The notes under the pieces were generated by a model. It searched no databases and was not told where the DNA came from. It was given only the letters and a program-made list of their open reading frames with translations. Below, one piece after another: positions 25,717 through 60,365 of a stretch of 64,000 bases of DNA. Both the position numbers and the translations under genes were made by a program. How positions within the stretch are numbered: position 1 is the stretch's first letter; each line of letters starts with the position of its first letter. The stretch is from Fragilariopsis cylindrus CCMP1102 (lineage: Eukaryota > Bacillariophyta > Bacillariophyceae > Bacillariales > Bacillariaceae), in contig FMBT01000331.1 of assembly GCA_900095095.1 (NCBI GenBank), positions 186,001-250,000 on the forward strand, in the 5' to 3' direction.

Positions 25717-28700
25717 CTATACGATTGAGAAACTGGCCCTTTTCCCGTTATTGTCGGATCTTGTCGTCAAAATATCATTTCCCTCGTCACCTACTGCATA
25801 ATCGGGATCGTCCTTATAGTCACTTCCTAAGGCTGGTGCTGAAGTATTGTCAGTAAACAATGAGTCGGGAGGAGTTGCGACGCCAGACTGTACCATTTTA
25901 GCTGATTCGAACAACTTTAAGTCGTCCTCGTCGTCTTCATCTTCATATTTTTCCACGACTACGGCGGCTGTGTTAACGCCGTGAGAGAGCTTGTTTAGAT
26001 ATGTACCATGCCAACCACCAGGAGGGGACTTGCGCAAATCGATGTCCTCTACGGCGAATTGTTGTAGGTATGTAAAGATAGAATTCTTCTTATTTGTTTC
26101 AGACCGTTTTTTCGTACGATATCGAATGCAACAGCAGATGAAGAGAGCTAGAAACAATATCACCGAAGCACTAATGATAGAGTATAGAAGCTTTGGAGCC
26201 ATGCCACTCTGCACACTCGGGCCGAACCATTCCGAAGGTGCGGATGCAGAATCGTCGGCATTATCGTTAGGATTGGACGATTGCTTGCTCAAAGAGGGTT
26301 GGCTAGCCCCATTCTCTTGATTAAAAACCATTAGGAATATATCACTGTGCTCATATGGAGTGTCTCTAATTCGATGGAAGTCGCCGTTAGTATCACCGAA
26401 TACTACAGCATTACCATTTGTATCGGATGCAATTCCTCCACCACGAGCGATACGATCATCGCCATTTGATCCGACCTGTTTAGTCCAGATCTTATTTCCA
26501 CTATCTGTCTGTAGCATGGCGACGAATATGTCATCGCCGCCGGCACTTTCAGTAAATCCTTCCAATATCGCTCCGTTTTCGACGTCCCCGGCAATGTAAA
26601 TTCGACCTTGACCAGGAATAACGGCACATCCAAGAGCGACGGAAGCTGCCTCCTTTTCAGTACTACCAGAGGAGTGAGTCACTGCAAATTGTGTGGTCCA
26701 TAGAATTGCTAACGTATTGGTTTGGATTTTGGAGACAACGGCATGAACAGTAGCATCGCTATCAGATTTGATTACCGAGTCATCCATTTCGCCTCCTGTA
26801 GCGCCCACAATGTAAAAGGAGTTGCCATCATCTGGATCTGTACATACGTTCGATATCCAATCATCATCACCTGTGATCGATGAAAAGTATGCCACAGAAC
26901 GTGCTTCATCTCCTTCGGAAGCAAAAGAACCATTAGCTGTGCTAACTTTGGCCATTATGCCATCAAAGTCACCATCGCCGGATGAGGACAGAGTACTACC
27001 AACAACAATCAAAGCGTCCCCGTTGTCGACCATAGCCATACCAGAAACAAAGATAGACCTTTGGTTGGCAGTTTCCAAAGGCTTTCGCCAGTCTAGATTC
27101 ATAGTCGAATCTATAGAACCTGGAGGCATGTCATCGGCACGATTTATCGTGTGGCGTTCCACAAGAATTTCGTATTGAGTACCATACTTCACGACTCCCC
27201 CCGTAGTGAAATTTGGAAATTTTTTGCTATCGGCTTTTTCGAAGTCTGCTGAAACTTTATCGTCTCTTGATGCCAAAGAAACCACAAAGACCTGCTTGTT
27301 GTCGTTGGTTATTACTTGAATTGGATACTGGACTTTTTCATCATCAATCACGGCTCCTCCAACTAACTCGAACGACCCTCCATTATTCGCAAGATCTAAT
27401 ATCATACCATACTGTGTCGCACGGCGAGCGGTGCGTAAATCGTCCATAAGACCCGATTTTTCAGATGAACCCACAATAATCGCCTCTGATTTTCCATTAT
27501 AATCCGTTAAAGAAATAGCGCTACAAGCCTCAGGCGTTCTGTTCGTTCCATATATTTCTTCTTGCTTAAAATTCAACCTTGGTAAGGTAGCGACTGCAAA
27601 AAAGCATTGAGAAGATTGGGCTGATGCATAGGTTGCACCAGTCACATACATTGCGTTCGTGTACGAGTCGTATGTCATACCTCCAGCATACGATGGAGCG
27701 CCATAGTTAGATTGTATGGCCACACTGCTATCAGGGACGACACCATCACCATCGCCGGCCATATCGGGGGGATTGTCAACTTGGTTATCGTTTCCAACAC
27801 TCTCTCCTTGAGTCGTAGGAAAAAGAAAAGAACCATCTTTCTTGTTCACAGTCATGACCACTAAGTCTGGTGCATCGGGATTGCCTTCGTGTTGGTCGTA
27901 AAAGTTTCCTCCGGTTTCTGCATAAACGATAGCATTCCCGAACGAATCAACATCTAAACCTTGTCCGCACGCGAAACGATCATTTTCCGATGTTCCCATT
28001 TGTTGGATCCAATTCACTTCTCCCGTGCCACCATCCATTGAAGCGACGAAAATATCATCTTTACCGTACGATTTTTTCCCGTTACCGCCTTGCCCGTCCA
28101 TTTCAGCCCCGTCTTGGATCGTTCCACCCACGTACACGACATTACGTCCGTTTGAATCAGGAGTGACGGTACACGCTAATGCCTCCGCCTCAACTGGTCC
28201 ACCACCAGGCATCTTCATCGTAAAGTGTTTCAACCACATGGCACCTAGTGTTTTCAAATCGACCTTTGCGACGTACGCGTGAACAGACCCTTCTGGAGGT
28301 TGTTGGTCATCGGGGATGTCTCTTATTTTTCCCATAGTTTTTCCAACAACGTAAAATGCATCATGATCGAACCGATCATTACAAATATTTAATATCCAAT
28401 CATCTTTTTTGTTGACGGAATCTAATCGTGTCGTAGACTTATTTCCAATGGAAGGTACTAATAATTTACCATCTTCAGGATTTACTTTGAGGACAAACCC
28501 GTCCATATCTGCAACACCTTCATTGTCATTTACTTCGAAGACACCGCCCTGACCACGGGTACTACCAACGACCACGAGGACGTTACCATTACCAGCCATG
28601 ACCATCCCACCAACATCAAGACCTACATCGGTATCGACACCGAAATCAACGAACCAAGTATCGTCGAGAGTATTAGGAACTTCATCATTTTCGAGTACCA

Positions 28701-31476
28701 CAGGAGCGGCTTGTTTGGGTACATTGTTAACTTTATACTTATTGATCATCAAGAAAAAATCTGATCCATATTTTCGATTAACAGAATCCATAAATTTTGG
28801 ATAGCTGGTACCGGACGCGGTATATTCATCATTGATTTCAGTCCTTTTGGTAGCAATAGATGCAACAAATAAAGAATCCTTATCAAAAGGATGCGTTACA
28901 ACACTAACGGGATATACAGCAGGATAATTAACAATATGATTCCCCCCGATTAATTCGACGTCTGCATTCAATTGTAATATCAATCCACCAGCTTCGGCAT
29001 CGGATTCACCTTGTACCCATGATGATCCACCTGCACCACCTGCACCGAATTCGCCCTGATCGTCCATTTCTGCTACACCAATCGTATAAGCAGCATTCCT
29101 ATTCGTATCAAATGTAATAGCATTACAGGCTTCTTCTAAGTTTTGTGATCCACGTGGTGTACGTGTAATAAGATTCCCGTTATCTAAGTTAACAACACCA
29201 GTAAAACAAAGACTGGTCGGATTTAATCCTGAGTTTGTATCCATATATGTCGCGCCAGCTAACAGTACAGTGTTATCATAGGAATCGTATACGATCCCAC
29301 CCGCATATGCCGGTCCACTAATTTGTAATCCAATTGGGTTAAAAAAGTGTTCTTCTGAAAGTTCATCCAATACATCATCATCATCATCATCATCATCGTC
29401 GTCATCATCAACAACGACGTCATCAAATCTATCATCTTCACCTATCATGTCAGTGGGTTCACCGGTGGGATCTACTACGGGTGTATCTGCTGGTACATCA
29501 TCAATAATTTCATCATCATCAACAAAAAGTTCATCATCATCATCAATATCCATATCCATATTGGTTGGAGCAAAAGTGGGTTCACGTTCATCCTCAACAG
29601 CAACAGGAACAGGAACAGGATCATTATTTGATATTCCACCAACAAAATTAGAATCTTCAAATATAGTTCCTGTTGCTTCATCTAAGGACATAACAAACAT
29701 ATCTTCAACAACTTCATTTGCATCATTACCAGTATTTTCATCTGCTGATCTTGTTCGGTACATACTACCGGTAGTATCACCATAAATTATAGGATTACCT
29801 TTATTATCAATAGTTATACCTCCGTATCGTGCTACTCGATCATTACCTGTACTACCAAGTTGGGTCATCCATTCCACAGATTGAGTTGTTTTATTAATTT
29901 TAGTAATAAAAACATCATCTCCACCCTGTGATTGTTTAATAGTTGACCCTTGTACGATAGATGCATCCATATCAACAGTACCTGCAACGTAGATATAATC
30001 ACCATCCACAACACAACCCATTGCTGATCCGAATCCACTTTTACTACCACTAGTATCATCTTGATTTAATATCGCCCATTGCAATGTCCATAAATTATCA
30101 GAATCAGAAGAAGAACGATCCGATTTAACTTGTCGAATAAAAGGTTGTAAAGTTTTTGTGGGTAGTACCATAGTTGGATTATCACGCTGGATTGTGGTAA
30201 AGTCTGCTTGTTGTACACCAATATTACCCTCGGTGGCACCCACAATAAAAAAATGATCCGGATCATTCACATCATCACAGATACCAGTCACGATATCATC
30301 GGCAGCAGAACCTTCCCGTACACCATCCCCTAAAAATTCACCAGTCAATGGATCAATCACAGTAATAAATCCATCTTCATCATCACCTTCTGCTAAACCA
30401 TATCCTGGACCAATCCCACGTGTGGATCCCACCACAATCAATAAGGAATCATCTGTTGTCAAGGATGTTTTTTTATGAATAATACCACCAATATAGACTC
30501 TTGGTTTTGGATTCTCCGAAGATGGATCTAATGGAAATTCAGTCGTCCATTCTTTTGATATAGTTGTACTTGTTGTTCCAGATCCAGTGGAGATACCATC
30601 AAATTCTTCTTCACCACCACCAAATGGATCTATTGTTACTTCCGATATTTTAATTTTGGTGACATGAAAATCAAAGGAACTACCATAATGTTGATGTTTT
30701 AACCAATCCGGATATTTTTTTTGACTTTCCACAGTATTTTCAATAGAATCAATGGATGTGAGGGATGCAAAGTAGATGAAATCGTCATTAAATTTATCAG
30801 TGGTGACTGCCACTGGGTAGACAAATTGCGTAGTGGGATCATCTTTATCCACTAATGGTACCTTTTCCAAAACTGCACTTAAATTATTTTCATCTAATAT
30901 AGTGACCATCCCTTCTAATGGTATCGATGTATCCTGATTAATTATTCTTCTTTCTTTGGTACCCATCACAATTAATTGTGATATTGGAGTTGCTTTATGG
31001 ACTGTTAAGGCAGTACATGTTTCTTGTACTAAAGTACCATCAGTATTTAATTTTGATCCTCCAAAATCATTAATACCATCCTCAAATAATGAACCATCCT
31101 CATAGTATGAAAATACAATTGATGCGGTAAAGCAGGATGAACTTTTTGTGGTTTGTTCACCCGTACCAAATAATACTGCATCAGTAGCTTCACCATCTAC
31201 AAAATCAACAATATCTTGATTGTAATGTATACCTGTTATAAATAATGTCTCGTCATCTTTATCAAATACCATCCCACCAGCATAAAATGAACCCGACGAT
31301 GGTCCACTTTGTAATCCACTACTACCAATTGCATTTACTAGCACTACATTTGTGGTTGTCGTCGTTGAAAGAAACGATACTGATACCAATTGAACAAGAA
31401 GTAATAGTATTATACTACTACAACTACTACTACTACTTCTCGATGATAATTTCTTCGTCTTCATCGTCAGAGTCAT
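25717..31476 (-). CDS. Giant surface protein A: three ~550-residue beta-rich modules plus C-terminal membrane anchor
   Basis: A single uninterrupted frame of 1919 residues. A signal peptide (SSIILLLLVQLVSVSFL..., ending near VLVNA) is followed by three homologous modules starting near residues 52, 719 and 1259. Each opens with a YAGG(M/I)-[VT]-[FY]D and T/AG(I/A).Y pattern, then SCFxA, and a CxA[IL][ST] segment. Later landmarks are KYG[ST].F/Y, GSTRG(I/Q)G, DDxWI.N[VI]C.D, FY[IV]VG.T.G.[IM], GDD[VI]F[IV], NDR.A.G.G..[IV]D, and GDT[TN]G.[MF].R.R. The repeated short strands look like a beta-propeller of the SBBP/Kelch sort (inference). Modules 1 and 2 are separated by an Asp-rich linker (29390-29410). 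A transmembrane helix (LLYSIISASVILFLALFICC, about 1772) and a cytosolic tail with PPGGWHGTYLNKL follow. It is head-to-head with paralogue B. The product is probably a cell-surface or wall-membrane protein; the function is undescribed to my knowledge. Confidence 0.8.
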   Translation of the reverse strand: MTLTMKTKKLSSRSSSSSCSSIILLLLVQLVSVSFLSTTTTTNVVLVNAIGSSGLQSGPSSGSFYAGGMVFDKDDETLFITGIHYNQDIVDFVDGEATDAVLFGTGEQTTKSSSCFTASIVFSYYEDGSLFEDGINDFGGSKLNTDGTLVQETCTALTVHKATPISQLIVMGTKERRIINQDTSIPLEGMVTILDENNLSAVLEKVPLVDKDDPTTQFVYPVAVTTDKFNDDFIYFASLTSIDSIENTVESQKKYPDWLKHQHYGSSFDFHVTKIKISEVTIDPFGGGEEEFDGISTGSGTTSTTISKEWTTEFPLDPSSENPKPRVYIGGIIHKKTSLTTDDSLLIVVGSTRGIGPGYGLAEGDDEDGFITVIDPLTGEFLGDGVREGSAADDIVTGICDDVNDPDHFFIVGATEGNIGVQQADFTTIQRDNPTMVLPTKTLQPFIRQVKSDRSSSDSDNLWTLQWAILNQDDTSGSKSGFGSAMGCVVDGDYIYVAGTVDMDASIVQGSTIKQSQGGDDVFITKINKTTQSVEWMTQLGSTGNDRVARYGGITIDNKGNPIIYGDTTGSMYRTRSADENTGNDANEVVEDMFVMSLDEATGTIFEDSNFVGGISNNDPVPVPVAVEDEREPTFAPTNMDMDIDDDDELFVDDDEIIDDVPADTPVVDPTGEPTDMIGEDDRFDDVVVDDDDDDDDDDDDVLDELSEEHFFNPIGLQISGPAYAGGIVYDSYDNTVLLAGATYMDTNSGLNPTSLCFTGVVNLDNGNLITRTPRGSQNLEEACNAITFDTNRNAAYTIGVAEMDDQGEFGAGGAGGSSWVQGESDAEAGGLILQLNADVELIGGNHIVNYPAVYPVSVVTHPFDKDSLFVASIATKRTEINDEYTASGTSYPKFMDSVNRKYGSDFFLMINKYKVNNVPKQAAPVVLENDEVPNTLDDTWFVDFGVDTDVGLDVGGMVMAGNGNVLVVVGSTRGQGGVFEVNDNEGVADMDGFVLKVNPEDGKLLVPSIGNKSTTRLDSVNKKDDWILNICNDRFDHDAFYVVGKTMGKIRDIPDDQQPPEGSVHAYVAKVDLKTLGAMWLKHFTMKMPGGGPVEAEALACTVTPDSNGRNVVYVGGTIQDGAEMDGQGGNGKKSYGKDDIFVASMDGGTGEVNWIQQMGTSENDRFACGQGLDVDSFGNAIVYAETGGNFYDQHEGNPDAPDLVVMTVNKKDGSFLFPTTQGESVGNDNQVDNPPDMAGDGDGVVPDSSVAIQSNYGAPSYAGGMTYDSYTNAMYVTGATYASAQSSQCFFAVATLPRLNFKQEEIYGTNRTPEACSAISLTDYNGKSEAIIVGSSEKSGLMDDLRTARRATQYGMILDLANNGGSFELVGGAVIDDEKVQYPIQVITNDNKQVFVVSLASRDDKVSADFEKADSKKFPNFTTGGVVKYGTQYEILVERHTINRADDMPPGSIDSTMNLDWRKPLETANQRSIFVSGMAMVDNGDALIVVGSTLSSSGDGDFDGIMAKVSTANGSFASEGDEARSVAYFSSITGDDDWISNVCTDPDDGNSFYIVGATGGEMDDSVIKSDSDATVHAVVSKIQTNTLAILWTTQFAVTHSSGSTEKEAASVALGCAVIPGQGRIYIAGDVENGAILEGFTESAGGDDIFVAMLQTDSGNKIWTKQVGSNGDDRIARGGGIASDTNGNAVVFGDTNGDFHRIRDTPYEHSDIFLMVFNQENGASQPSLSKQSSNPNDNADDSASAPSEWFGPSVQSGMAPKLLYSIISASVILFLALFICCCIRYRTKKRSETNKKNSIFTYLQQFAVEDIDLRKSPPGGWHGTYLNKLSHGVNTAAVVVEKYEDEDDEDDLKLFESAKMVQSGVATPPDSLFTDNTSAPALGSDYKDDPDYAVGDEGNDILTTRSDNNGKRASFSIV

Positions 31477-31817
31477 TATTTATTTATTTCGTTTTGATTT
31501 GTTTTGATTCGTTTTGTTTTGTTTTGTTTTGTTTTCGTCGTCTGGTCAGACTTTGACTTTGACTTTGACTTTGGCTTGTGTTCCGTTGCCCGCCTTTTCA
31601 ATCTTTGTTTGTTTTTTTCTTTGTTTCTTTGTTTTGTTTTGTTTGCTTCTTAAACTGGACTCAATCAACTGTGTTGAAAAGCTTTTCAGAAACAAAACAA
31701 ACAAGAGTGACAGATATTATGCAGTTCAGATTTTTCTTTTGTGTTAATAATGCATCCACTAAGATAAGCAAGTGACCAAAACAAAAAAAATCTAAACGTT
31801 ACGTACAAAGAAATAAA

Positions 31818-32033
31818 TTTTCCTTTCGCGTTGATGACTCTACTGGAAGCATGCATAAAACGCTAGGCTATGTTGTATTGCAGTATGCACGACTCCTACA
31901 CTGCCTACTACCGTACAGATGTGCTTTTTTCCTTCGCTTTTGATCGATGACTAACTGGCGCATGCATAAACGGTAGTAAGTTGTATTACAGTATGCACGA
32001 CTCCTACTACTATATATTATGTGCATTTTTCAA
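31818..32033. repeat. ~108-bp diverged tandem duplication
   Basis: Two units share GATGACT..ACTGG, GCATGCATAAA, TTGTATT(G/A)CAGTATGCACG followed by ACTCCTAC, and a final GTGC(A/T)TTTTT. The first unit is about 31818-31925 and the second about 31926-32033. Several substitutions and small indels separate them. Confidence 0.65.
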
Positions 32034-32230
32034 TCACGACACGACGTGAAAATTCATAAAACTCAACGGCACGGCCATAATTGATGATAATATTATAGAA
32101 GAATTTTACTTACTAAATAAAGTTCGTAAAAATATTTATTTAAAATAGGCCGGAGTTATTTCGTTAAGAAAAATAGAAATAAAGAGGAGTTTTTATGAAT
32201 TTCAAATTCATTCTCTTTCAGAGCGAGCAG

Positions 32231-33187
32231 GAACATCCGCGATTTGAAAAAAATCCAAAATCAGCGATAATTCACAGCCCCCACCGCGCGAATTCAAAGT
32301 ACACTCGACTCATGAGTCCAGCACTCGACTCATCGCTCGACTCTGAGTCCAGCGCTCGACTCTCATGGGACTCAAATATCATTTAATTAACGAAAAAATC
32401 AACAAGTTTTCACTTGTATTCGTTGTTGAAATAGAAAATTATTTCCAAGGATACAGACAATGGGAATTTAATAAATCGAAGCTCCATCAATATTGCTCCA
32501 TTTACTACAAACTTTATAGACGAAATATTTCTGTTGGTACGCTTAATAAGGGAAAAACGTTTTGGTTGAATTTGGATATCTGGGGAAAATGCTATGAGTA
32601 TTTATATGGGTGGTAGGCAAATTTCGAATCGCCAGGAAGAGGTGTATAAGAGAGGTGAATTAAGAATTTAATAAACAAATTAGAGAAAAAGTACTGGTAC
32701 AGATGTCTCTATAACTGTTACATTAGTCAATGCGATGATTTTTACTTTTATTGTTACATTAAGAAAGGTCCCATTGTCAACGGGTATGTTGGACACGTTT
32801 TTTCAAAAATAAATATTATTCGTCTCTTTTACTAAGAGAAAGTTTATATTTAACACTAGACCAAATTAAACCGCAATTTTACGCATCTATTAACAGTAAC
32901 AAGAGCTTTCTTTTGAATCTACTCTTGTATTAAACAGACTAGTAAAGATGGAGATTCGATCCATTGTTTCTCCCATTGTCATGTTTTAATTATTAATTAT
33001 CAATTTTTTTAGATTTTATTATCATTCTACTCAAGAATATTTGATTCGTGAGTCGAGTGATCTCGACTCATCACTCGACTCTGAGTCGAGCTACTCGACT
33101 CAGAGTCGAGCCACTCGACTCATTTCGCGCGCGCTGGGGGGTATGATTTTTCGCTGATTTTCAATTTTTTTTAAATCGATGATGTTC
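32231..33187. mobile_element. Non-autonomous inverted-repeat (foldback/MITE-like) DNA element
   Basis: The two ends are inverted copies over about 140 bp. The left begins GAACATCCGCGATTT and the right end reads the same inwards as GAACATCATCGATTT. Both continue through AAAATCAGCGA, a C run and GCGCG, and then enter arrays of ACTCGACTC/GAGTCGAGT. The copies are roughly 80% alike by eye. CAG flanks both sides (32228-32230 and 33188-33190), a possible 3-bp target duplication. The ~670-bp centre is AT-rich and has only an 83-codon open frame (32365-32616) without any transposase motif. Superfamily is unassigned. It sits in the shared promoter region of A and B. Confidence 0.7.
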
Positions 33188-33610
33188 CAGTTCGGGAAAA
33201 TAACATGGTGAAGCGATGTATCATACCGTTAATATTATCTATCACCTGCGACGATGTGACGTGACCGCGTTTATCCCGCACCACGATCCAACCCACGATC
33301 CATCCTACAAATTTTATTACTGTGTACACTGTAACGGATCGATATTTTAGAAAAGGCACTATAGAAACAAGGGCCAAACTTTCAATTTCGCATACAGTAC
33401 AAGTACAATAAAAAGAAAGACTCAGTGTATCATATCTCTCTCTATTCTTCTTTCTTCAATCTATCTTAACCAAACTTGATTTCGAACACAAAACAACCCA
33501 ATTAAGAAGGCATTGCATCATCTAATAAACAAGGCACGAACGAAAGAGAACCAAACTTGATTTTGAACACAAAATAAAACCCATCAAGAAGGCGTCTAAA
33601 GAAAGAAATA

Positions 33611-36600
33611 ATGAGTCCCGCTATTAGTACACGTACTGCTTTTTCCTCCTCCTCATCCTCCGCCGCCGCCACCGTTGTTGTTGCTGTTGCATTGTCATCA
33701 TTATTATTATTAACACAACTATCAAGTAGTGTTGTTTTGGCGGATGGTTCATTTCAAAGTGGACCAAATAGTGGTGCAATATATGCAGGGGGATTAGATT
33801 ATATTGGTAATTCTATATATATAACTGGTATAACATACGATTACAGTTCAGAGGTAGCAAAAAAATCGTCCTGTTTTGTATCAAAAATGGATGCAACAAA
33901 ATTACAAAATCATAAAGAAGCGATATCATCACGTATTGGTAGTGGTGATGTAATGGAAGCATGTCATGGTATTTCATTATTACATGATCCATTAATTCCT
34001 ATATCAGGGGAATATAAACCATTTATGGTGGCCGGTACATCAGATCCTGGTGGTGTATATGGTTCAGTTGAAGAAGTACCATCTGGATTTTTAATGGCAC
34101 TCGATCCTTCATCAGATACAGAAGATTTTAAGATTGAAGCAGGATTATCTTTTGATGATGCTGGAGGAACGAATACTGTATCATATCCCGTCAGTATATT
34201 ATATGAATACAATACACGTGCCACTCAGGAAGAGATGATGGATGTAGAACGTCGTGTTGGACAAATTTTTATTGCAAGTTTAAGTAGTGTTGATTTAAAT
34301 TTATCATCGGATCATGAACAAGTACTTCAGGCGGCCCAAAAAAAAGGACAACCAGATCAACCAAATTGGATGAAATTTCGTAAATATGGCAAATCATTTG
34401 AAATGACAATCAATAGATTAACTACCCAACCTGACGACGATGGAATTGGTATTAAAATTGAAGAAGATTGGACAAAAACATATCCAATTGATATTGATCC
34501 AAATACAGGTGAAAAACCAGATGTATATTTAGGTGGTATGATATATAAAAAGATCATTGATCATCCAGGAACATCTGATGGTACATGGTTAGCAGATTTA
34601 GGCCTAGGTGGTGTTGGATCAATTGATGAAATATTAATTGTTGCTGGATCAACACGTGGTATGGGTATTGGATACGGTGATGCGACAGGTGATGATGAAG
34701 ATGGATTTATTTCTATTGTTTCTACAGTAAATGGCAGGCTTATTAATGAAGATGGTAATACATCCAACAAGAGGATTGGTACAGATGAAACTGATTTGAT
34801 ATTAGGTATTTGTGATGATCCAACTAATCCAAATGCATTCTATATCGTTGGTACGACTGCTGCAAAACCATCTGAAGGAATGGGTGGTAGAGTGGCGAGG
34901 ACTGTTGTTGTGACTGATGATGAGAGTTTACATGGATATATACAAAAAATTCAATTGGATACATTAGAAAAAATATGGGGTGCTCAGTGGGGTGCTAATC
35001 ATATGGGTGATAGAATGGAAAATAATAGTGGTGATGATAATTTTGGTGACGGTGAATTTGGTGAAGGTAGTAGACCAACTTTAACGGCTGGAATGGGCTG
35101 TCACGTTCTTAAAGATGGTAGTGTTTATGTTGCTGGGATTGTTGAAGATGGTGCACATATTAAAATGGATGAACGACATCGATCTACTCATAAAGGTGAT
35201 TCTATTGTAGCTGGTAAATTTGATGGCGAATCTGGACAAGTACAATGGATAACACAATTCGGATCGGATGATGGACATGAACAATTAGCACAATATAGTT
35301 CTGGTATTGCTGTTGATGAAAATGAAAATTTGATTTTGTATGGTGATACAACTGGATCGATGTATCGATCACGTTCTGATAGTAGTGATGGTTCATCTGA
35401 TATTTTCTTAACAACATTATCAAAAGAAGATGGTAGTCATCATACAATTGGTATGCCTGATGATGGTACAATTGCATTTGAAGATGAAAAATTTGCCGGT
35501 CTTGGTAGCGATTACAGTGGACTGTCCGGTGAAGAAAAGTGGAAGATGTATGAAGATGGTGATTGGGAAGGAGGTTCGAATGAGGGTAGTTTTGGAGAAA
35601 GAAACCGAGATGATGATCACTTCTTCATGGGTGGGCATCTTGGCGATGGTGATGGTAAAGGTGGAGATCATGATTATGGGGGATATGGTCCAAATGGTGA
35701 TGGATATGGTAGAGGATATAATAATGGACGATTCGGTATCCAATCAGGACCTAAATTAGGATCGACATTTGCTGGTGGAATGGCATACAATGCCGATGAA
35801 GATAGTGGTAAGTTATGAAAAAGAGTTTACATTTATGAGTACACGCAATTGGCACCTGTATCGGTGTGACGGGAGAGCATACTATTTACTGCTGCATCTT
35901 GCTCATCCAGTATCTATCTGTCTTCTATTGTTATACTTCTACTCTCCGCTTTAATAATAAATAACGATACATAATATAATATTCTGAAGTGTACTTGACC
36001 GGAATTTCATACGACGATTCGAATTCGCAATCAAATTGTATTCTAACGAAACTTCCTTTGGCGGGAGGTACCACCGAAGAATGGTCCGAAGCTACGGAAA
36101 GAACATTTGGAAGCTCTGATGTTATTGAATCCTGTAGCAGTATTGCACTCCATCGATATGGTGAAGTTGTTACAGTGGGTAATGGTAACAGCGGTAGCTC
36201 TTTAACGAAGGATAGTAGTTTGAATCTAGGTGGAGGATTCGCAATGGCGATCGACCGGAACAATCTTGGTCAAATCGATGCAACACCGTTAGTAACAAGA
36301 ACGCCCGACGATAAGATCCAATATCCCATTTCCGTCGTAAGTGATGGAGATGATTTGTACGTCGTGTCATTAACGACAACGGATAGCGAATATTCCAGAG
36401 AATTTAAACAGTTGATGTCGAATGGTGGTGACTACGGAGGTTTTTCTCCGAATTTTATCAATATGCAAGTATATGGCAGTAGTCTCGACATGACAGTTAC
36501 TAAGATAACACTTAAAGAACAGTTAATCGACGGTATCCCTGATGGAGAAATAACATTCACCACTGCTTGGAGCAAGGAATTTCCCGTATCTCCAGATGGT

Positions 36601-37976
36601 GATGGCTCCGGAATAATCCCCCATGTGTTCCTTGGTGGTGCTATCGTAAAGAAAAACCTAGGATACTTAGCTATTGCGGGCAGTACTCGTGGATTAGGTG
36701 AAGGATATGGCGCCGCGGTCGGTAGTGACGAAGACGGCTTTATAACTTTGCTCGATTTACAGACGGGAGAACTATCTGACGAAGTGGATCGAAATAATAT
36801 CCGAGAGGGTTCGGCGGAAGATGATATCGTTCTTGGGATCTGTCACGATCCTGCTGATGACGGCTCGTTTTACGTCGTAGGAGGAACGAAAGGAGTTATT
36901 GGAACACCAGGTACTACGAAGGATGTTCCTGAAGGATCGCTTCAAGCATTTATACGTAAAGTTGATGCCTATACTCTTGCCGAAATGTGGACGATACAAT
37001 GGGGTGCAATTAATAAGAACGGAGCATTGCAATCCTCACCCACTGTTGCAAAGGCATATGACTGTGCTGTTTCGGACGATGTTGTGTATGTAGCCGGTGT
37101 TGTAGATAACAATGCCGAGATAGTTAAAGGAGATTCTCCTCGTATGGCTCAAGGTGGAGACGATATTTGGGTTGGTGCAGTTAACGTGCAAGGGTGAGTA
37201 AAATTCTAAAGGAAAATGCATCGAGTATACCAGAATTAGACACGTCTCTTATAAAACGGATGCAAGTCTCTGACATAAATTTCGTGTTTGTTACTATTGT
37301 TTGTTTCTACAGAGGTGATGTGAAGTGGTTACGGCAAGCAGGTTCCCCTGGCAATGATCATATTGCTCCTCATGGAGGTTTGGCTATCAGCAAGAACGGT
37401 AATGTGATTGTCTTTGGTGACACAAATGGTGCATTCTATAGAGAACGTTCAGAATCCAGTACGAGTGATATGTTTGTCATGGAATTTGGTAAAAATGGTC
37501 TGCACAAACGTCACGTACGTGCTCCAATGAGAGACAATACACTAGCAACTGCTCCACCTGTAACTGCTCCACCTGCTGCTGCACCCGAGCCTACTGCTGG
37601 TCCTCCGACGGTCAAGGTGGAACCTGTCCAACTCGTGCCTGATTCTACCAACAGTAAAAGCGCTAAGGAGCCTGCAGCTAGTGGAAGTGAAGATAATAAG
37701 ATATCCACAGGAGCTCTTGCTAGTCTTCTTATTGCCGTTATCCTGCTACTGATTGCCCCCCTTTCATATTTCGTTTATCGCCGACTTGGATGTCGTCGTT
37801 CGAAAAAGACTATCGACATTGATGATAGTTATGGTCCGGATGGTTTGGTTGCAAACAAGAGTAGCAGTTACAGGGATCAGCCGCCACAGTCGGCATTTTC
37901 TAACGGAGGTTATGGGGATGATCCTCTTGGTGGATACTCAAGCAATCTAAAAGATAATGGAAAGCACGTAATTTAA
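33611..37976 (+). CDS. Giant surface protein B: two-module paralogue of A with C-terminal membrane anchor
   Basis: Three exons: 33611-35807, 35990-37193 and 37313-37976. The introns (182 and 119 nt; donors GTAAGT and GTGAGT) restore a 1354-residue frame. The signal peptide (SSLLLLTQLSSSVVLA) precedes FQSGPNSGAIYAGG, nearly the same as A's first module. Shared landmarks include GSTRGMGIGYGDATGDDEDG, LGICDDPTNPNAFYIVG, GDTTGSMYRSRS and NDHIAPHGG. A Gly/Asp/His-rich linker (about 35550-35740) separates the modules. Splicing at 35807/35990 rebuilds VYLTGISYDD, the same strand as YITGITYDY in module 1. After Ala/Pro-rich sequence (about 37540-37620), the anchor (LASLLIAVILLLIAPLSYFV) leads to a short Gly/Ser-rich tail. 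It diverges from A. Confidence 0.8.
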
Positions 37977-38538: not shown

Positions 38539-40908
38539 CTAGTTCGAATCGACCAACGGGAGGAAGTCGTTTTCGTCGTGATTATTCGTCTCCTCGTTTT
38601 TGCTACCAGAGTCTTCGTTTCGTTTTTCTAATTCGGCTTGATAATGCTTCATTCGACTGACGACGCCACCAAGATATCCGGATTCCATCATAAAATCAGG
38701 ATTTATGAGTAATACTTCTGCTGATTCCAATTCTGGTACGGTCGAAAGTGATCCATCCATGCATCCAACCGGTCATGCTCATATAGGTTGGCTTTCCATG
38801 CTCGTTTTGAGATAAAGAAGATCGGTTCGATACTTCTGTATAAATGGATATATCATATCCATCATCTCCTTGGTAGAAAGCGGTATTGACGACTGATTCG
38901 AACGGCCAACGATCTTCATGATCACTACCGACTGAACCACTACCATCCGGTGCTTTTCCACGCCTTTGGATTGCTAATGAAATTGTTTCTCGGAAATCGA
39001 CTATATCGCTCACTTTAGAATAATCCATATACGTCCATGAAAAATACGTACCGGCGTCCATATCAGCGTCAAATATTTGAGGTAAAACAAATATACGATT
39101 TGTTTTACGGGCAATAGCAATTAGAATGGCTAAAGTCCATCGTAAGACAACTTTGTCATGGTATCGGTTCTGATGCGCTACTGAATAAAAGTTACTTCGT
39201 AGCTCACCATCCAACCAAAGATATTTTCTATAGGATTCACCACTACGTTCGTAATATCCAGCGGAATCGCACCCGGATGTACAGGAGTTCTGTCGTCGTT
39301 TTTATTATGGATGCTGCTGCTGCCGGGATGAGTCTTGAATCCATGATACGCACCTAATTCTTTCGCGATCATTTTTTTACCATGTGGCATTTGTAATGGT
39401 GCGTTGTTTAAAGTGTGAAGAGCTAACATTTGATGGGTCGGCATGGGTCGTTCATCAGCGACAACCTCGTGAGGGGAAAACATTTTTGCTATAAAGGGAT
39501 GTTGAATTGTTGGAGTTTCCGGTGGTCCATCTGGTTCAAATGTACCTCCAAAGTTGTATGTTACGTTATGATAGGTATGTTGGAATAGTCGATGAACTTC
39601 TGCAAGAACCCATTGATCGTGTGTATCCGGTTTCTCTTTTAACACGTCAAGACACACACGGAAGTATTCCTCTGAGTACTCATCTGCCTTAACTGCGTAC
39701 ACACCAATATTGGGTGCATTGTAATTATTTTGATGACCGGAAAAATATATATGCTTGCCTTCGTCGTCAGATTTTTGTTCTTCTTCTTGATTAGTAGTAT
39801 TATTATTATTAGTAGTATGCCGATTTTGAAACTCAATTAGATTTGTTTTCGGTGAACGGATCCACCAAACATCCATTTCGGTAAAGAAAAAATCAATACC
39901 ACGTTTTACTAATTCATGAGAGAGAATAACTTTTGTATTGGCCACAGCATTTTTTAAATTACCGGCATCCGCTTTCCATAAAATAACAGAATATCCATAC
40001 CGGCAGGCTAATTCGACCGATCGTGGATCGAGAGCCACTAAAAAGAAATGCTGGTTCGAAAATCCTACCGTTTCCTCCATCATTTGGAACACATCATGAA
40101 TCATATCTTGTACGTAACTGTAATCAGAAATAGTAAATGCCACCATATTAGTATCTGGTTCCGGAACGATCCGAGGAAATTCACCAGATAACAGTTCATC
40201 CAGTTGTTCCGTGGTACTTTTATTTTGTTCGACAGCTAAATCAAAACAGGTACGATACTCCACGTCCGATACTGTTGGTGGATATAAGTAATTCCTTTCT
40301 TCGATTGCGGAAGATTTGTTGTTGTTGTTGTGGTTGTTATTGTTTCCCATCGTACTATCTTTTTCCAAATATTCAATCCAATCTACAGGTATCTGATCAA
40401 ATGTTTCTACTGACCATTCTTCTTCTTGTATATCTTTGAATGATGGTGGAAATGGATATGATCGATATTTATTTTCTCTTCGAGCTGTCGTAAAACAATC
40501 TAAATTGTACGAAGAACAATCGGTTGCTAATCTCCAATGCGGGAGCTGTGTTTGTGTTTGTTCGTTATCATCATGCACCACCGTCGTCGTTGATCTCATT
40601 CGCAAAGAATGTTGTTGTTGCTCCTGATGTTCTTGCTGTGTTACAGAATTATTTTCAGAATCAGAATCAACATCAGTACCATCAGTAACATCAGCAACAT
40701 TGTTGTTGTTGTTGTTGTTGTTGTCACCGTATTCAATGATTTGACGAGATACCAATGCAGGTTTGATAGAACGTGATGAAAATAGAATCCCATGAGCGAG
40801 TATAGAAGTAAAAAGTAGAAGGATAAAGAGATTTCCTTTACCACTTTTATTTTTTCTCGTTGTTATTGTTGTTGCTGTTGCTGTTGCGGCACTTCTTGTT
40901 TCGGTCAT
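38539..40908 (-). CDS. GT77-like nucleotide-sugar glycosyltransferase, type II membrane protein
   Basis: A Golgi-type protein with a short cytosolic end, a signal anchor (LFILLLFTSILAHGILF) and a lumenal catalytic domain of the nucleotide-diphospho-sugar transferase family (PF03407). Visible parts are SVELACRYGYSVILWKADAG, ILSHELVKRGIDFFFTEMD with the DxD-like EMDVWW (about residue 343), NAPNIGVYAVKADEYS, DTHDQWVLAEV and a late HGFKTHPG. A C-terminal portion (TNRIFVLPQIFDADMDAG) resembles the conserved segment after the catalytic domain in plant GT77 arabinosyltransferases. The frame breaks near 39215 (fits one missing T in a run) and near 38750, with similarity continuing past both. Likely role: glycosylation of wall or adhesive proteins. 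The sugar is unknown. Confidence 0.78.
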
Positions 40909-41762
40909 CTTATTAGCTATCGTAAGGACTTTTTTGTCGTATTTTCTAAAGGTAGTACCAGACCGTCGGATTCAAACAAAATGTTTCTAACTACTACAGT
41001 AGAGAGAGGGTGAGGTGAGACTACAATAATCTGTTCCTTGTGGTTGCTTCAACGGTACACTACCTAGCTAATAGAATCGTTCTTGAAAGTCCTACAGTTT
41101 CTGTTCTACCCCACGGTTTCACTACTTCTATTCTCGTTCTCCAAAATCCTTCATTCAAATAAATTCACATACTTCTAGAAGTAAAGTTTTTGAAATGTTT
41201 GAATTGAGCACGGGTACGGGCAGGCGCATGTGCTGTCACGCCGCTCGAACGGTAATTTCGTTCACTTAACCCCGAAAATACGGGAAAAAGGAAAACTATT
41301 GTGGCGCGCCATAGGGGCGTCCAAGTATTTGACTGGTCAGTCTTATAAATCCTTATTACGTCCAATCCTTAACATAGCGTAAGTAAAGTAAACAACCGTT
41401 ACGATACTCTTTTTTTCATAGTATTCTTATTTTTAGCAAAATCAGTTAGAAAACAACTCGGGAAAATGAGATCTTATCGCAGAAATCATCGCTCACAAAA
41501 AGTCCAAGAAGTTGAGAAAAAATAAATTCACACAAAAATCATAATTTTTCACTATTGCTTGTTTTGGTACAAATAATACTGCAACGACTATCTACTAACT
41601 AGTACGTCCACAAGAAATTGTGTTTGGAAAAATCACTTTCCTCGTTGGACATATAAATGTTCAAAAGAACACGAACACGAATACTAGCAACGCGAACGAA
41701 CAAACAAACGACGCAATAAAACACCATCAATATACAATACAATCCAATACAATACAAATATC
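40909..41762. promoter_or_regulatory. Divergent intergenic region
   Basis: About 850 bp between the glycosyltransferase (minus) and the fasciclin gene (plus). The last ~120 bp before the FAS1 start are A- and C-rich (ACGAACAAACAAACGACG, then repeated AATACAAT), typical of a 5' leader. No gene seen. Confidence 0.45.
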
Positions 41763-42649
41763 ATGATGTGTTTGTTTTCACGATTAATATTTCTTTTGGT
41801 GTTGTTGATTAGTGCAACACCTTCTACAGCACAGTCTGTACCACCACTTGATGGAGATGGAATTGATACCGGAGATGCATGTCCCCCAACCGTTCCTGTA
41901 ACAGGAACGGATTGCAGTGAATCGATTCCTGCTGGTGCAAGTGAAGTATCATGTATGTACTTTGGATCTCTTCAATGTAATTGTGCCGGTCAAGATAATG
42001 ATGCATCGACTATCGGATGGAATTGTCGTGATTTAAATCCCGATGGTGATGGCAATGTTAATGTAACACCAATAACAACACCAGTTTCATCTCCTGTCGA
42101 AGAACCACCCATTACTGTTCCTAATGAAGAGGAGGAAGATAGCGAAGATGAAAGTAACGACATTTCAGAAGACGTTTCCGATGACGATACTGACGATGTT
42201 GATATTCCTAGTACTGCCATTGCAGCTGGTGTATTTGATACATTAGTCGCAGCATTAGGTGCAGCTGATTTAGTTGATGTATTATCAGGTGAAGGACCAT
42301 TTACTGTATTTGCACCAACTGATGATGCATTTGCTGCTCTTCCTGATGGATTAGTTACATGTTTATTAGAACCAGATAACAAAGGAGCATTAACATCCAT
42401 TTTGACGTATCATGTTGTTAGTGGTGAAATTTTATCAAAGGATTTAGTGAATGGGGCAGCTGTGGAAACTCTTCAAGGAGAAGATGTTACAGTTGATCTA
42501 AGTGATGGTGTTAAGATCAATGAATCCACTGTTGTTGTTACAGCCGACATCATTACTAGTAATGGTGTTATTCATGCTATTGATGCTGTTTTAGTCCCTC
42601 CATCAATTGATGTTCCTGCATTCTTTGAAACTTGTGGTGGTGATGGTGG

Positions 42650-42688
<39 letters not shown>

Positions 42689-45076
42689 CGACGATGACGA
42701 TGACGATGACGATACTGACGATGATATGGAATCACTTGTTGATATACCTAGTACTGCCAATGCAGCTGGTGTTTTCAATACATTAGTTGCTGCATTAGGT
42801 GCAGCTGGTTTAGTTGATGCATTATCAGGTGAAGGACCATTTACTGTATTTGCACCAACTGATGATGCATTTGCTGCATTACCTGAAGAACTTGTTACTT
42901 GTTTATTAGAACCAGATAACAAAGGAGCATTAACATCCATTTTGACGTATCATGTTGTTAGTGGTCAAGTTTTATCAACTGATTTAGAGGATGGTATGAC
43001 AGCAACAACTCTTCAAGGTGAAGACGTTACAGTTGATTTATCGGATGGTGTTATGATCAATGACTCTGAAGTTATTACGGCTGATATCCCTACAACAAAT
43101 GGTGTTATTCATGTTATTGATGCTGTTTTAGTACCATCATCTCTTGATGTTGCTGCATTCCTTGAAACATGCAGTGATTCTGATGACGATACTGACAATA
43201 TCTCATTTCCTCCCGTAATATCCCCGACAACTGCTCCAGCTGCAACTACAACTACACCGGTTAATCCTATTGTGGCAAATTCTCCTACATTGGGGGTTCC
43301 TTCATTTACTCCCGTATCGCCGACGACTGTTCCTGTTCAGACCAATTTACCATCGAAACAGCCCACAAATCCGCCTTCGTTGGCTCCTACTCAAGCCCCA
43401 ACGCAAGCACCAACAGCAGTTCCGTTTAATCCGCCAACTCTGCCTCCAACTTTACAGCCTAGTTTACCACCAACGGTCCCTCCAACGAGGAGTCCAACTG
43501 AACCGCCTACACGCTCACCAGCAAGTGCTCCGATATTACCAGTACCGTCAGTTCCAACTCCACCCACGGTAGCTCCGCCACCACCTAAGGATGATGTGCC
43601 ATATTATCCGTACATAAGGTCAAACTATGATAATACTTATTCTAGGCCTACGACACGTGAACCAACGCCGAAGCCTACACCCAGACCAAGTTTGGTTCCT
43701 ACGCCAAATCCAACTCCACTACCAACGCCCATTCCAACGCACAAGCCATCTCCAATGCCAACTAACAACCCGACTGAACGGCCATCGCCCGTGCCAACGC
43801 ACAAACCAACATTCAGGCCCACAGGTATTCCAACGGAACGACCTACCCCAATTCCAACAGACAGGCCTACGCCCGATCCGACGCCGCAGCCTACATATAA
43901 ACCAACTCCAATGCCAACTTCAAAGCCAAGGTATGTTTTTTTGTCACGTCGTTTTATTTGTTGAGAGCAAGCGAGAGAGAGAGAGAGAATCATATGCTTT
44001 TTCGCCTGAGCACATCACTTACTCATTCTTTATCTCTTTTCCCACTCACAACTCCACTATCATTTCACTCACAATTTCTCTTAAATTTTGTACACTGGTC
44101 TACGTTTCTTCTCGTCGAAATCAATTCAAATCAAATAAGACCTCGCGTACCTGATCCTACTAATAGGCCTTCTAACGGACCAACGAGAATTCCCACGAAT
44201 AATCCAACCGAACGGCCTACGCCTGTTCCTACTAACAGGCCCACCAATTTTCCAACCAGAATTCTAAATCAGCAGACTACGGGACAACCTAATGATAGTA
44301 CATCGAGAAGGCCATCGAGTAGGCCAACGAGAAGGCCATCGAGAAGTCCGACTAGACGGTAAGTTATTTGGTTGTAGTGTATGCTCGCACGACGTTCACT
44401 TCGTTATCTTTAAGAATCACTTAACTGACCTCAAATCTTTGTCCTACTGCAATATTTATTGCAACTTTGTCTTTGATTTGTCTAAATTAATGAAATCGCG
44501 CGAAGACCTACTGATAATAACAATAACAACATGAATAACATGAGCAACAGTAATAGCATGAGCAACAGTAATAGCATGAGCAACAGTAATAGCATGAGCA
44601 ACAGCAATAGCATGAGCAACAGCAATAGCATGAGCAACAGCAATAGCAAGAAGAATAACAATAAGAACATGAACAAAAGTAATAGCAAGAAGAATAACAA
44701 TAATAACAACATGAACAACAACATGAACAACAACATGAACAACAACATGAACAACAACATGAACAACAACATGAACAACAACATGAACAACAACATGAAC
44801 AACAACATGAATAATAATGGTAACCGTGGCATGAATAATAATAATAATGGTAACCGTGGCATGATGAATAATAATAACATGATGAATAATCAGTTTACGA
44901 ACTTTAATAATAGGTTCAATATGTTCAATAATAATAATCAGTTCACGAATTTTAATAATGGGTTCAATAATAACAATAAGTTCACTATGTTCAATAATAA
45001 TAATCAGTTCTTCCCGACTCCTTTATTCATTCCTAGATCCAATGGGAATCATGGCCGTAATGGCGCCATGGGATAG
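41763..45076 (+). CDS. Secreted double-fasciclin (FAS1) protein with Pro/Thr repeats and Asn/Met tail
   Basis: Three exons: 41763-43930, 44140-44358 and 44506-45076. The introns (209 and 147 nt) join in phase to give 985 residues. A signal peptide ([16 protein letters not shown]) and a Cys-rich N-terminal segment ([12 protein letters not shown] ... CNCAG) come first. Two FAS1 domains follow at residues ~146-280 and ~326-463, each with the H1 motif [22 protein letters not shown] and GVIHxIDAVLVP. They are joined by a poly-Asp linker, near-pure GAT/GAC repeats at 42650-42715. A Pro/Thr-rich region (PTP.PTP.P style) continues through exon 2, and exon 3 encodes (NNNM)n-type sequence. FAS1 domains mediate cell or matrix adhesion. 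No C-terminal anchor is visible, so it is probably matrix-bound or secreted. Confidence 0.85.
44535..44815 (+). repeat. Short tandem repeats encoding SNSM and NNNM units
   Basis: Within exon 3 of the FAS1 gene. First come about five 18-nt units of ATGAGCAACAGTAATAGC, then about nine 12-nt units of AACAACATGAAC. Unit length is a multiple of three throughout, so copy-number change would leave the frame intact. Confidence 0.85.
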
Positions 45077-53678: not shown

Positions 53679-56600
53679 CTACATTTTTGAAGAAGCGTAT
53701 CCACCGACACACGGTCCGCAATAATCCTTAGGATAGAAGCGAAGGGCGTCGGAATCAGGTTCAGGTACACAGAATGTCTTGTATCCATCACGAGCCGAAT
53801 AGTGACACACATGGACCTTGTCACTGGTAGGACCACAAGGGTAATCTTCAACAACACAAAAATGATCTTCTGCGTCATTAGTTTCAGCGTGTCCGGTCAA
53901 TGATTCAAATTCTTCCGTGCTTCCATCCTTGTTGTTGTTTTTGTTCTTGATCTTCTCGGCAAGGTTGCGTCGTACTAATCCATCCGGCAGACCACTATTG
54001 ATAGGAGGTGAAGTGGGTGGGATTGTGACAGACACTGCGTCTTCGGGACATGGATCTACACATGGCAATTTGAATGTATATTGGACGGTACGGCATTGGT
54101 CACCTGCGTGACAACATTCTGGAATTTCTGCATTATCAGTTTGATCCAAGAAGGGTGTAACATCACTGCAATCAGTCATCCAGATATTAATAACACTAAT
54201 CTTTGCGTTATGCATACATTGAGCCATGAATTCCATTTCAACTGCCTCCACGACGTTTTCTTCTTCCAAACATTCCGTCTCACCAAAGGATCCAGTGTGG
54301 TATTCGGTGAAAACACTCGAGACTGTGCTACCAAAAGTATTCACGACCTTGAATGCTACATGAGTAGTGTTCTGGAATGTGATAGTGATCGGTGATGCAG
54401 GGTACATTGTTTCTCCGTCGTTAGAAATCAAGATAGGTACGGATTCAGGACATGTTGGTGGAAGAATTAATTCGACGATCTCGCTTGGTTTCGAACTTGG
54501 TGTTAAAGTCGGACTAGAGGACGGCGAGGTAGTTGGAGTTGCGGTGGGAGTTGCAGAAGGCGAGGAAGTTGGAGTTGCGGTGGGAGTTGCAGAAGGCGAG
54601 GAGTTGGAGTTGCAGTGGGAGTTGCAGAAGGCGAGGAAGTTGGACTCGCACTAGGTTTGGTACTGTCAGTAGGAGACTCGGATGGTGCAGAACTTGGGAA
54701 GTAACTTCCACTAGGAGCAGCTGATGGTTCTCCACATTCGACAGTGACGGTTTCACAAGGAATTTCAACTCTGTATGCACAGAATTTGTAGTCACCACCC
54801 ATTTCGGACAAAGTATCAACATTACAGGCATCACATTGATCTGCTTCGAATTCTTCATCCATATACACGACGACAGTTGCGGTGGCAAATCCTTCAATAC
54901 ATTCACCTTTCACATCTTCAGAATCTCCAAAAGTGACGTTGCTCTTAATGATACAAGAATCCATACCGGCTTCGATGGCAAGGCCTGCTTCTTCGAGGAT
55001 CCAGTTTTGGTTAACAGTAAAGTCAACCATATCGTTGGCAAAGTTTTGGTTGTTGATCACGATAGCATTCACAGGCATTGGGATAGTTTCCATTTCATCT
55101 CCACCGGTTGTCATACAAATAGACTCAACAATCTTGGGTTCTGCAGGCATGTAACAATCGGTAGGCATCATAGATTGAGTTGGGTTGTTGGTAGGAGATT
55201 CAGAAGGAGAGGCACTTGGGCTGCTAGTTGGTCCCCCACTTGGCGAGGAGCTCGGCGAAGCGGATGGAGATCCGCTAGGACTTGCACTAGGACCAGAAGT
55301 TGGACTAGATGAGGGTGCAGAGCTAGGAGAGCTAGTTGGACCACCAGATGGTGCTGCACTTGGACTAGAGGTTGGACCACCAGTTGGTGCAGCAGTAGGC
55401 GAATCACTTGGAGAAGCGCTGGGACTAGAGGTTGGACCACCAGTTGGTGCAGCAGTAGGCGAGTCACTTGGAGAAGCGCTGGGCGACGACGTAGGTTTGC
55501 TGCTTGGTGATTCAGAGGGATTGGCTGTTGGGCCTGCTGTTGGATTGGTAGATGGACTAGCACTGGGACTTGCAGATGGCGCTGGACTCTTTGTTGGGCT
55601 ATCAGATGGCGCAGAACTAGGGAAGTAACTTCCACTAGGAGCTTCACTAGGTGATCCAGTGGGTGCTGAAGTGGGTGATGATGAAGGCGTGGCAGTTGGT
55701 GATTTAGACGGACTAGTGGTTGGGCCTCCTGTTGGTGAAGAAGTTGGTGATGCAGTAGGACCTGAACTTGGTGATGCAGTAGGCGAAGAACTTGGTGATG
55801 CAGTAGGCGAAGAACTTGGTGATGTAGTAGGACCCGAACTTGGCGACGCAGAAGGCGATGCAGTTGGCGAATCACTTGGTGCAGAACTTGGTGAGCTTGA
55901 TGGACCATCAGTTGGGGAAGAACTAGGCGAATCACTCGGAGATGCAGTTGGTGCTGACGATGGTCCATTACTTGGACTTGCGGATGGTGATGATGTTGGT
56001 CCTCCTGTAGGACCCGACGAAGGAGAGGCACTTGGTGATTCAGAAGGACTGGCCGTTGGGCCTGCCGTTGGATTGGCAGATGGACTAGCACTGGGACTTG
56101 CAGATGGCGCTGGACTCTTTGTTGGGCTATCAGATGGAGCAGAACTTGGGAAGTAACTTCCACTAGGAGCTGAACTAGGTTCACCACATTCGACAGCAAT
56201 TTGTTCGCAAGGGATTTCAACACGGTAGGCACAGAAGTCGTATTCACCACCCATCGAAGCGAGAGCATCGACGTCGCATGCTTCACATTCTTCTGGATCA
56301 AATGATGCATCCATGTAGACTACAATAGTGGCAGTAGCAATACCATCAAGGCAAACCCCGTCGAAGTCTTCCGTAGATCCCAAAGTCATGTCGCCCATCA
56401 CCATACATTCATCCATACCGCTTCGGACAGCCATACCACCTTCTGCAACCCACTTTTGACTGACTTGAAAGTCAATTTTTTCACCTTCTAGGCTTGTAAC
56501 AACAAGCGCATTTTCAGGCATAAGTGTGGTATCAACTACGACGTCACCAGACATACAAACTGAAGCTAATACTTTGGGTGGTGCTGGCATGTAACATGCG

Positions 56601-59296: not shown

Positions 59297-60365
59297 ACTT
59301 TCTTGATATATAGTATAGTATACTCTTTTTGTTCTTGAAGTTAAAGGTTTTAACAGATTTGCTGTTATTAATTGTTGTTGTTTAGTAGTAACAATCCACC
59401 GGGTTTGCGAAGATTGTTTTTTTATGAAAAGATGGAATACTAACGTTAACGACGTAAAGAAAAGTAAGTTGTTGTGTACAAAATAATACATTTATCTAGA
59501 ATTCTGAAAGTTTCACTAGCTATTATCACGTGTTGTTCGCATTGTTTACATGCTTTTTAGAAAAGTAAGAAGGCTCCGCTTCGACATCACGACTACATTT
59601 TGTTGGTTGTATGTGTTGTTACTAGTTTGTTTAGACAAAACGGGTCATCATTATACCATAATACATTGGACATATCGAAAACGATGTTGCGAATAAGAAA
59701 GAGACATCGACATTCCATTCCTTGGCTTTAGCGTGTAGAGTGCTTGACTTAAATGTTAAATTTTACTTAGCCTTTTAAAATTATTTTATATAATATTATA
59801 TATGCCTCGCAAGATCAATATTACGTACTGTATTAAAAATAAATGCATCGATATCGTGGTTGTTGTCTTGATAGCCTAATATTATATATATTACAACATC
59901 CATATAACAATATACAGTATCATCATCATAGTATCGATCGTGGTTGAGTGAATGTCATACTAGGTACTAATGACGCTTCGACATTAGTCCATGACTTGTA
60001 AAATTAATAGAAGTACATAGGGTCTTCTTGAGCATAAGCGGAGAAAAGAAAAAAATACAGCATGATCACAAACAACAACATGATCCATTCTTGGTCATTC
60101 ATGATTCATTCATTCATTTATTTATTGCTTCATTTCATACCACAACACTTACCAAGAGTAAAACTAGAGTAAATCCCGAACCTCCCCGATTCGCACCAAA
60201 TAATTTAGAAAAAAAAGGAAAGAGAAGAGAAGAAAGAAGACAATAGGAGCTAGCGACAATATTGATAACGGCGAAATAGAGGAACAGCAGCTTGAGTTTA
60301 CTGCTGCTGCTGCTGCAAAGAACAGCAAGAAGATGAATATGATTTTAGTTATCGTATAATCTGGG
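59297..60365. other. Intergenic, no gene seen
   Basis: About 1.07 kb upstream of the mucin-like gene and downstream of the kinase locus. AT-rich, with CATTCATTCATT near 60110 and a CTGCTGCTGCTGCTG tract near 60301. No recognisable gene. Confidence 0.4.

Follow-up and report, generated by a model that had tools for sequence, protein, structure and literature searches.

What kind of protein is encoded by two large genes, A and B, that lie head to head in a 64,000-nucleotide stretch of the Fragilariopsis cylindrus genome (C770:186001-250000, hereafter the window)? A first-pass annotation, made from the letters of the window, had described the two products as giant modular surface proteins and, perhaps, as a matched pair of wall or adhesion receptors. 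The coordinates, strands, and lengths that it gave for A (1919 residues) and B (1354 residues) were right. We favor, with moderate confidence, the interpretation of A and B as type I single-pass membrane proteins that are built from β-propellers and belong to a family of receptors or adhesion proteins. The genome searched for relatives comprised 67.9 Mb in 818 contigs. A diatom host was supported by its silicon transporters, since all 27 stretches listed for this genome scored over the Pfam cut-off and only one of 14 control genomes gave a match, below the cut-off.

Protein A consists of a signal-peptide-like start, three propeller modules (A1 to A3), acidic linkers, one transmembrane (TM) helix, and a cytosolic tail of 135 residues. 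In protein B, a similar start is followed by two modules (B1 and B2), a TM helix, and a tail of 72 residues. Hydropathy analysis revealed, in either protein, a single signal-like stretch at the N-terminus and a single helix toward the C-terminus, in agreement with the build initially proposed; in this predicted topology, the modules would face the outside or a lumen. Splicing of the B transcript was deduced from GT-AG consensus sequences and from the module alignment.

The five modules cut from A and B were compared by BLASTP. All pairs (10/10) matched, with E values of about 1e-25 to 1e-87 and identities of 24-33%, indicating that the three modules of A and the two modules of B are real and homologous. 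Their size was 476 to 567 residues, the figure of ~550 residues initially reported being at the upper end of this range. The four patterns first named as landmarks were unequally conserved when counted by eye in the alignment: GSTRG was present in four of the five modules, DDEDGF and GDTTGSMYR were each exact in two, and NDR.A.GG was exact in none, with near forms in several. A further alignment, which added three family members encoded elsewhere in the genome, provided a steadier landmark in the form of four cysteines kept in 8/8 modules. One Asp of a GGDD element was also kept in 8/8, as were four of eight additional motif columns picked by hand; three of the remaining columns were kept in seven modules and one in six. 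According to our own seven-blade cut, two cysteines are located in the neighboring blades 1 and 2, and the other two in blades 5 and 6. This placement makes two disulphides per module likely. The conserved Asp of GGDD may perhaps contribute to Ca2+ binding at blade junctions, where CylK has Ca2+. The most distant module, on contig C356, matched B1 only at E values of 0.002 to 3e-8 (BLAST).

Fold prediction of a single module, suggested as a check by the first-pass annotation, was performed for A3. The AlphaFold model was a seven-bladed β-propeller, and its best match in the PDB was CylK. The SBBP family of Pfam (PF06739, cut-off of 20.5 bits) matched A3 with 20.6 bits when the module was submitted alone and with 26 bits in the genome search; the scores of whole protein A (18.3 bits) and B exon 1 (16 bits) were below the cut-off. 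The SBBP blade signature was matched in the last blades of the module, and blades 1, 4, 5, 6, and 7 each matched another blade at P <0.001. The score of A3 with NF047494, the LipL53 equivalog model, was 37.7 bits for a curated cut-off of 400. The SBBP match, the CylK match, and the A3 model bear out the early proposal of a large β-propeller of SBBP type: the fold is demonstrated in one predicted model and the homology of the modules by sequence. The landmark set, then reported as unfamiliar, indeed corresponds to no named family, although the fold itself is known. Matches of A and B to the alanine racemase and Kelch entries of Pfam were weak, below the cut-off, and were rejected. A PHROGs search returned nothing useful. 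The 50 rows shown for a viral fold library had identities of 9-16% to the module, the best being predicted domains in giant-virus collagen-repeat proteins; these matches reflect the fold only.

A search of the genome with protein A identified 18 stretches. Searches with the A tail, B1, and the relatives on contigs C356 and C108 returned the same loci and a few weak matches. The search tool scores the best candidates only, which makes any count of members a minimum. Once three near-identical pairs had been merged (C337/C680, C356/C65, and the two mini-proteins, of C356 and C76), at least six distinct genes were left: A (three modules), B (two), C337 (one), C108 (at least one seen), C356 (one), and the mini-protein (none). 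The latter is a frame of 194 or 193 residues that encodes a TM helix and a tail resembling those of the other members, with neither propeller nor other ectodomain; its two copies (L033:5929-6513 and L034:6196-6777) agreed at 185 of the 193 residues aligned. Between C337 and C680, the uncorrected fraction of changed sites over 1287 bp of ectodomain was 0.20 for synonymous and 0.011 for non-synonymous sites and, over 900 bp of the last exon, 0.077 versus 0.010. Synonymous differences were far above non-synonymous ones, indicating purifying selection on this pair. C337 and C680 (loci L029 and L030) have their gene content in common but are oriented oppositely, and synonymous divergence reaches about 20% in the exon that encodes the propeller; the pair may possibly result from a segmental duplication rather than represent alleles. 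C311 and C358, considered as relatives of the tail (E 0.002), were both dropped, the former being aspartic-protease-like by eye and matched over the membrane helix. Matches of the A tail to C791 and C451 (E 0.6-0.7) and of the B tail to C139 (E 0.004) were left out of the family.

The tails provided a second shared element. In A, C337, C356, and the mini-protein, the stretch located directly inside the membrane contains 15 invariant positions and spans LQxF, DID, and a core, GGWHG[TA]Y. This cytosolic stretch of A was 46-57% identical to that of each of three aligned relatives, in comparison to about 22-33% for the modules. The genome has seven sites for the codon pattern of the core, all of them within family genes, and none for the reversed control, in a search that an intron-split core would escape. 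The tails of A and B differ from each other, and those of B and C108 are alike near the end by eye. The last residue of each of the six distinct proteins is V or I, and the one before it is I, V, L, F, or T. For comparison, 6 of 39 background open reading frames ended in V or I, four of them with a hydrophobic residue or T before; these frames, of at least 200 residues from ATG, were taken mechanically from the window and seven loci, and are not all genes. Hydrophobic V/I C-termini can act as PDZ ligands. Generic endocytic motifs (YxxPhi, NPxY, and dileucine) common to the six tails were not found; single YxxPhi matches were present in B, C356, and the mini-protein.

How might such proteins work? 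Outside the cell or in a lumen, A and B would expose rigid strings of three and two seven-bladed SBBP/CylK-type propellers, respectively, each probably pinned by two disulphides, perhaps with Ca2+ at the blade junctions, and held apart by acidic or Ser/Pro-rich linkers acting as stalks. Propeller faces would bind a putative ligand, which may be a wall glycan, the matrix, or a protein of a partner cell. The tail would dock a cytosolic partner, for example a scaffold of the PDZ type, by means of the GGWHG[TA]Y signature where there is one (A and three other genes) and, in all six, of the hydrophobic V/I C-terminus. The tail-only mini-protein would share this partner. A more elaborate version, which we advance tentatively and consider rather unlikely as a whole, is that of a private diatom receptor family that would have adopted a bacterial-type SBBP propeller held by two disulphides, duplicated modules, exchanged tails, and acquired a new docking code (LQxF/DID/GGWHG[TA]Y plus the V/I end), with the mini-protein as a regulator or competitor.

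Relatives outside this genome were sought by scans seeded with short patterns or by tblastn alone, which distant relatives could escape. None were detected for B1 in phages or viral contigs, for A1 in plasmids, or for a four-module alignment in prokaryote genomes or viral contigs. Neither prokaryote nor viral contigs yielded a confirmed relative of the A-tail signature, and this signature had no match worth naming in Pfam or the PDB.

The head-to-head order of A and B had been taken to suggest co-regulation from a shared region of 2.1 kb. The start codons are indeed 2134 bp apart, but 971 bp of this interval is nested inverted-repeat DNA, leaving about 750 bp beside A and 420 bp beside B, and a shared bidirectional promoter is weakened as an explanation. 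The inner repeat had at least 74 matched stretches genome-wide, self matches included, on scoring the best 40 of 316 candidates. The outer foldback element carries CTCGACTC repeats. In BLAST comparisons, A2 was the neighbor of A3 and B1 that of B2; A1 was nearest to B2 and C337, its match to C337 on another contig (2e-76) being better than those to A3 (3e-35) or A2 (1e-30). A1, B2, and C337 also grouped together in the module tree, in which no branch was starred and the ends were long. A simple recent duplication does not account for A and B, given this pattern. In combination with the repeats and the differing tails, the proximity of A1 to C337 leaves the 'matched pair' unproven, and head-to-head order by itself is no argument for co-regulation.

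Comparison with known systems indicated that the fold is familiar and the arrangement apparently new, as far as the literature was searched. The closest solved relative of the module is the β-propeller domain of CylK, a cyanobacterial alkylating enzyme (PDB 7ron, 7fh6), whereas in A and B two or three propellers, with four conserved cysteines apiece, are strung together and anchored in the membrane. SBBP repeat proteins, including the LipL53 family, share the blade signature, but the low NF047494 score, the restriction of above-cut-off Pfam scores to A3, and the type I membrane build set A and B apart. SBBP and CylK supply a fold, and no function for A or B; the modules do not fall into a well-described family of known function, the outcome by which the first-pass annotation would have been refuted. 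Integrin α chains similarly combine a seven-bladed ectodomain, one TM helix, and a short tail, but contain FG-GAP repeats, which Pfam did not list at E values up to 10 for A, B, or four modules, although HMMER filters discard most weak matches of this kind. The conserved diatom sexual gene Sro637_g179400 and its orthologues encode a single-TM propeller protein for which a role as a receptor or in adhesion is suggested in PMC8027222; its order as described there (unknown N-terminal domain, TM helix, C-terminal propeller) is the reverse of that of A and B. The family appears undescribed, as first proposed, in the open-licence literature searched, including the accessible portions of PMC8027222, PMC12618581, PMC6678668, PMC3491386, and PMC8916777.

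Several observations weigh against a family of propeller receptors or adhesion proteins. The A3 model was built on five sequences, and 62 of its 476 residues had a pLDDT (predicted local distance difference test) value <50. Genome-wide, the SBBP model scored only in A3; blades 2 and 3 did not match another blade at the above threshold; protein A alone retrieved three weak, irrelevant matches from the PDB; and the CylK profile match vanished once the row for B2 exon 2 joined the alignment. No in-frame signal peptide was seen for C108 or the mini-protein, and the tail signature is missing from B and C108. The six V/I ends are not independent since the six genes share descent. Finally, the lack of a shared endocytic signal argues against a standard endocytic receptor, yet it is no demonstration of adhesion.

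Propeller receptors may also operate inside the cell, as does sortilin/Vps10, which binds cargo in the secretory and endocytic system. A and B could likewise be receptors for intracellular sorting or nutrient uptake, with cargo bound by the propellers and a tail signature acting as a diatom-type trafficking signal; the conservation of the signature next to the membrane, and the existence of a mini-protein that lacks the propeller, would fit such a role. The low-iron surface protein ISIP1 of diatoms, for which a role of this kind has been proposed, has the same order of parts as described in PMC3491386: signal peptide, β-propeller-like domain, predicted O-glycosylated region, TM helix, and small tail with an endocytosis motif. 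By this description, ISIP1 has a single propeller-like domain and a cysteine-rich center, whereas in the present family the propellers number one to three, the four cysteines of each module are spread out, and the tails have no generic endocytic motif in common. In addition, the low-iron motif ACACGTGC, reported in ISIP1 promoters by the same source, has no site in the 2134-bp interval that separates A from B, nor does CACGTG. The missing motifs weaken the uptake hypothesis, which we regard as rather unlikely.

We assign a still lower probability to a passive role, in which propellers would serve as spacers that link the plasma membrane with the frustule or its organic casing, without signaling. 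Strings of modules on acidic, Ser/Thr/Pro-containing linkers would suit this role, as would the proximity of two proteins that are likely extracellular, one with two fasciclin domains (41688-43964) and the other a giant with PT repeats (54503-59491). In contrast, the better conservation of the cytosolic stretch than of the modules and the existence of a tail-only paralogue suggest an active cytosolic partner. Membrane-tethered enzymes are the least probable solution, and a very improbable one, even if CylK, the nearest solved relative, is an enzyme: catalysis in CylK occurs at the interface with an N-terminal Ca2+-binding domain (PMC8916777), and a Pfam scan of A and B reported no credible domain besides SBBP, although no profile of the CylK N-domain, which supplies Arg105, was used. 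The family probably consists of receptors or adhesion proteins.

Table 1. Features of genes A and B and of the interval between them (window positions).
Feature	Position	Strand	Basis or remark
Gene A	25717..31476	-	Single exon, uninterrupted frame, 1919 aa
A signal-peptide-like N-terminus, about residues 1-48	31333..31476	-	Hydropathy; cleavage site by eye
Module A1, residues 54-609	29650..31317	-	Module alignment
Module A2, residues 717-1221	27814..29328	-	Module alignment
Module A3, residues 1253-1728	26293..27720	-	AlphaFold model and SBBP match just above Pfam cut-off
A TM helix, residues 1766-1784	26125..26181	-	Hydropathy 2.76
A conserved cytosolic signature, residues 1800-1835	25972..26079	-	Common to three other genes
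Hydrophobic end of A (SFSIV), a candidate PDZ ligand	25720..25734	-	Tail comparison
Outer inverted-repeat element, foldback, MITE-like (miniature inverted-repeat transposable element)	32224..33194	.	67-nt arms, 82% complementary
Inner repeat, about 575 bp, nested in outer element	32426..33001	.	Dispersed in genome
Gene B	33611..37976	+	Three exons, 1354 aa after intron removal
B exons	33611-35807, 35990-37193, 37313-37976	+	GT-AG and module alignment
B introns, two, GT-AG	35808-35989 and 37194-37312	+	Splice consensus
Module B1, residues 47-613	33749..35449	+	Module alignment
Module B2, residues 709-1200, split by both introns	35735..37511	+	Module alignment
B TM helix, residues 1264-1282	37701..37757	+	Hydropathy 2.61
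B cytosolic tail, without GGWHGTY signature, ends GKHVI	37758..37976	+	Tail comparison

Other genes of the window were also noted. The fasciclin protein, 3.7 kb from gene B, contains two FAS1 domains (Pfam 1e-73), a long linker of Asp residues, and a C-terminus rich in Pro and Thr. The giant protein (53679-59491) has long PT-type repeats of Ser, Pro, and Thr, and inspection by eye also revealed domains that recur and contain cysteines. Its frames 54503-59491 and 53679-54650 overlap, and an intron or a frame change is therefore likely. Two overlapping minus-strand frames occupy 38696-40971, the upstream one matching Nucleotid_trans (PF03407) and the other having no Pfam match.

To our knowledge, the manner in which diatoms sense, or hold to, walls, surfaces, and mates is a largely open question. 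Its small size, its firmly assigned fold, and the short conserved motif on its inner side make the present family a concrete handle on diatom sensing and adhesion. If our interpretation is correct, this would be, as far as the literature was searched, the first described use of the SBBP propeller in eukaryotic membrane receptors.
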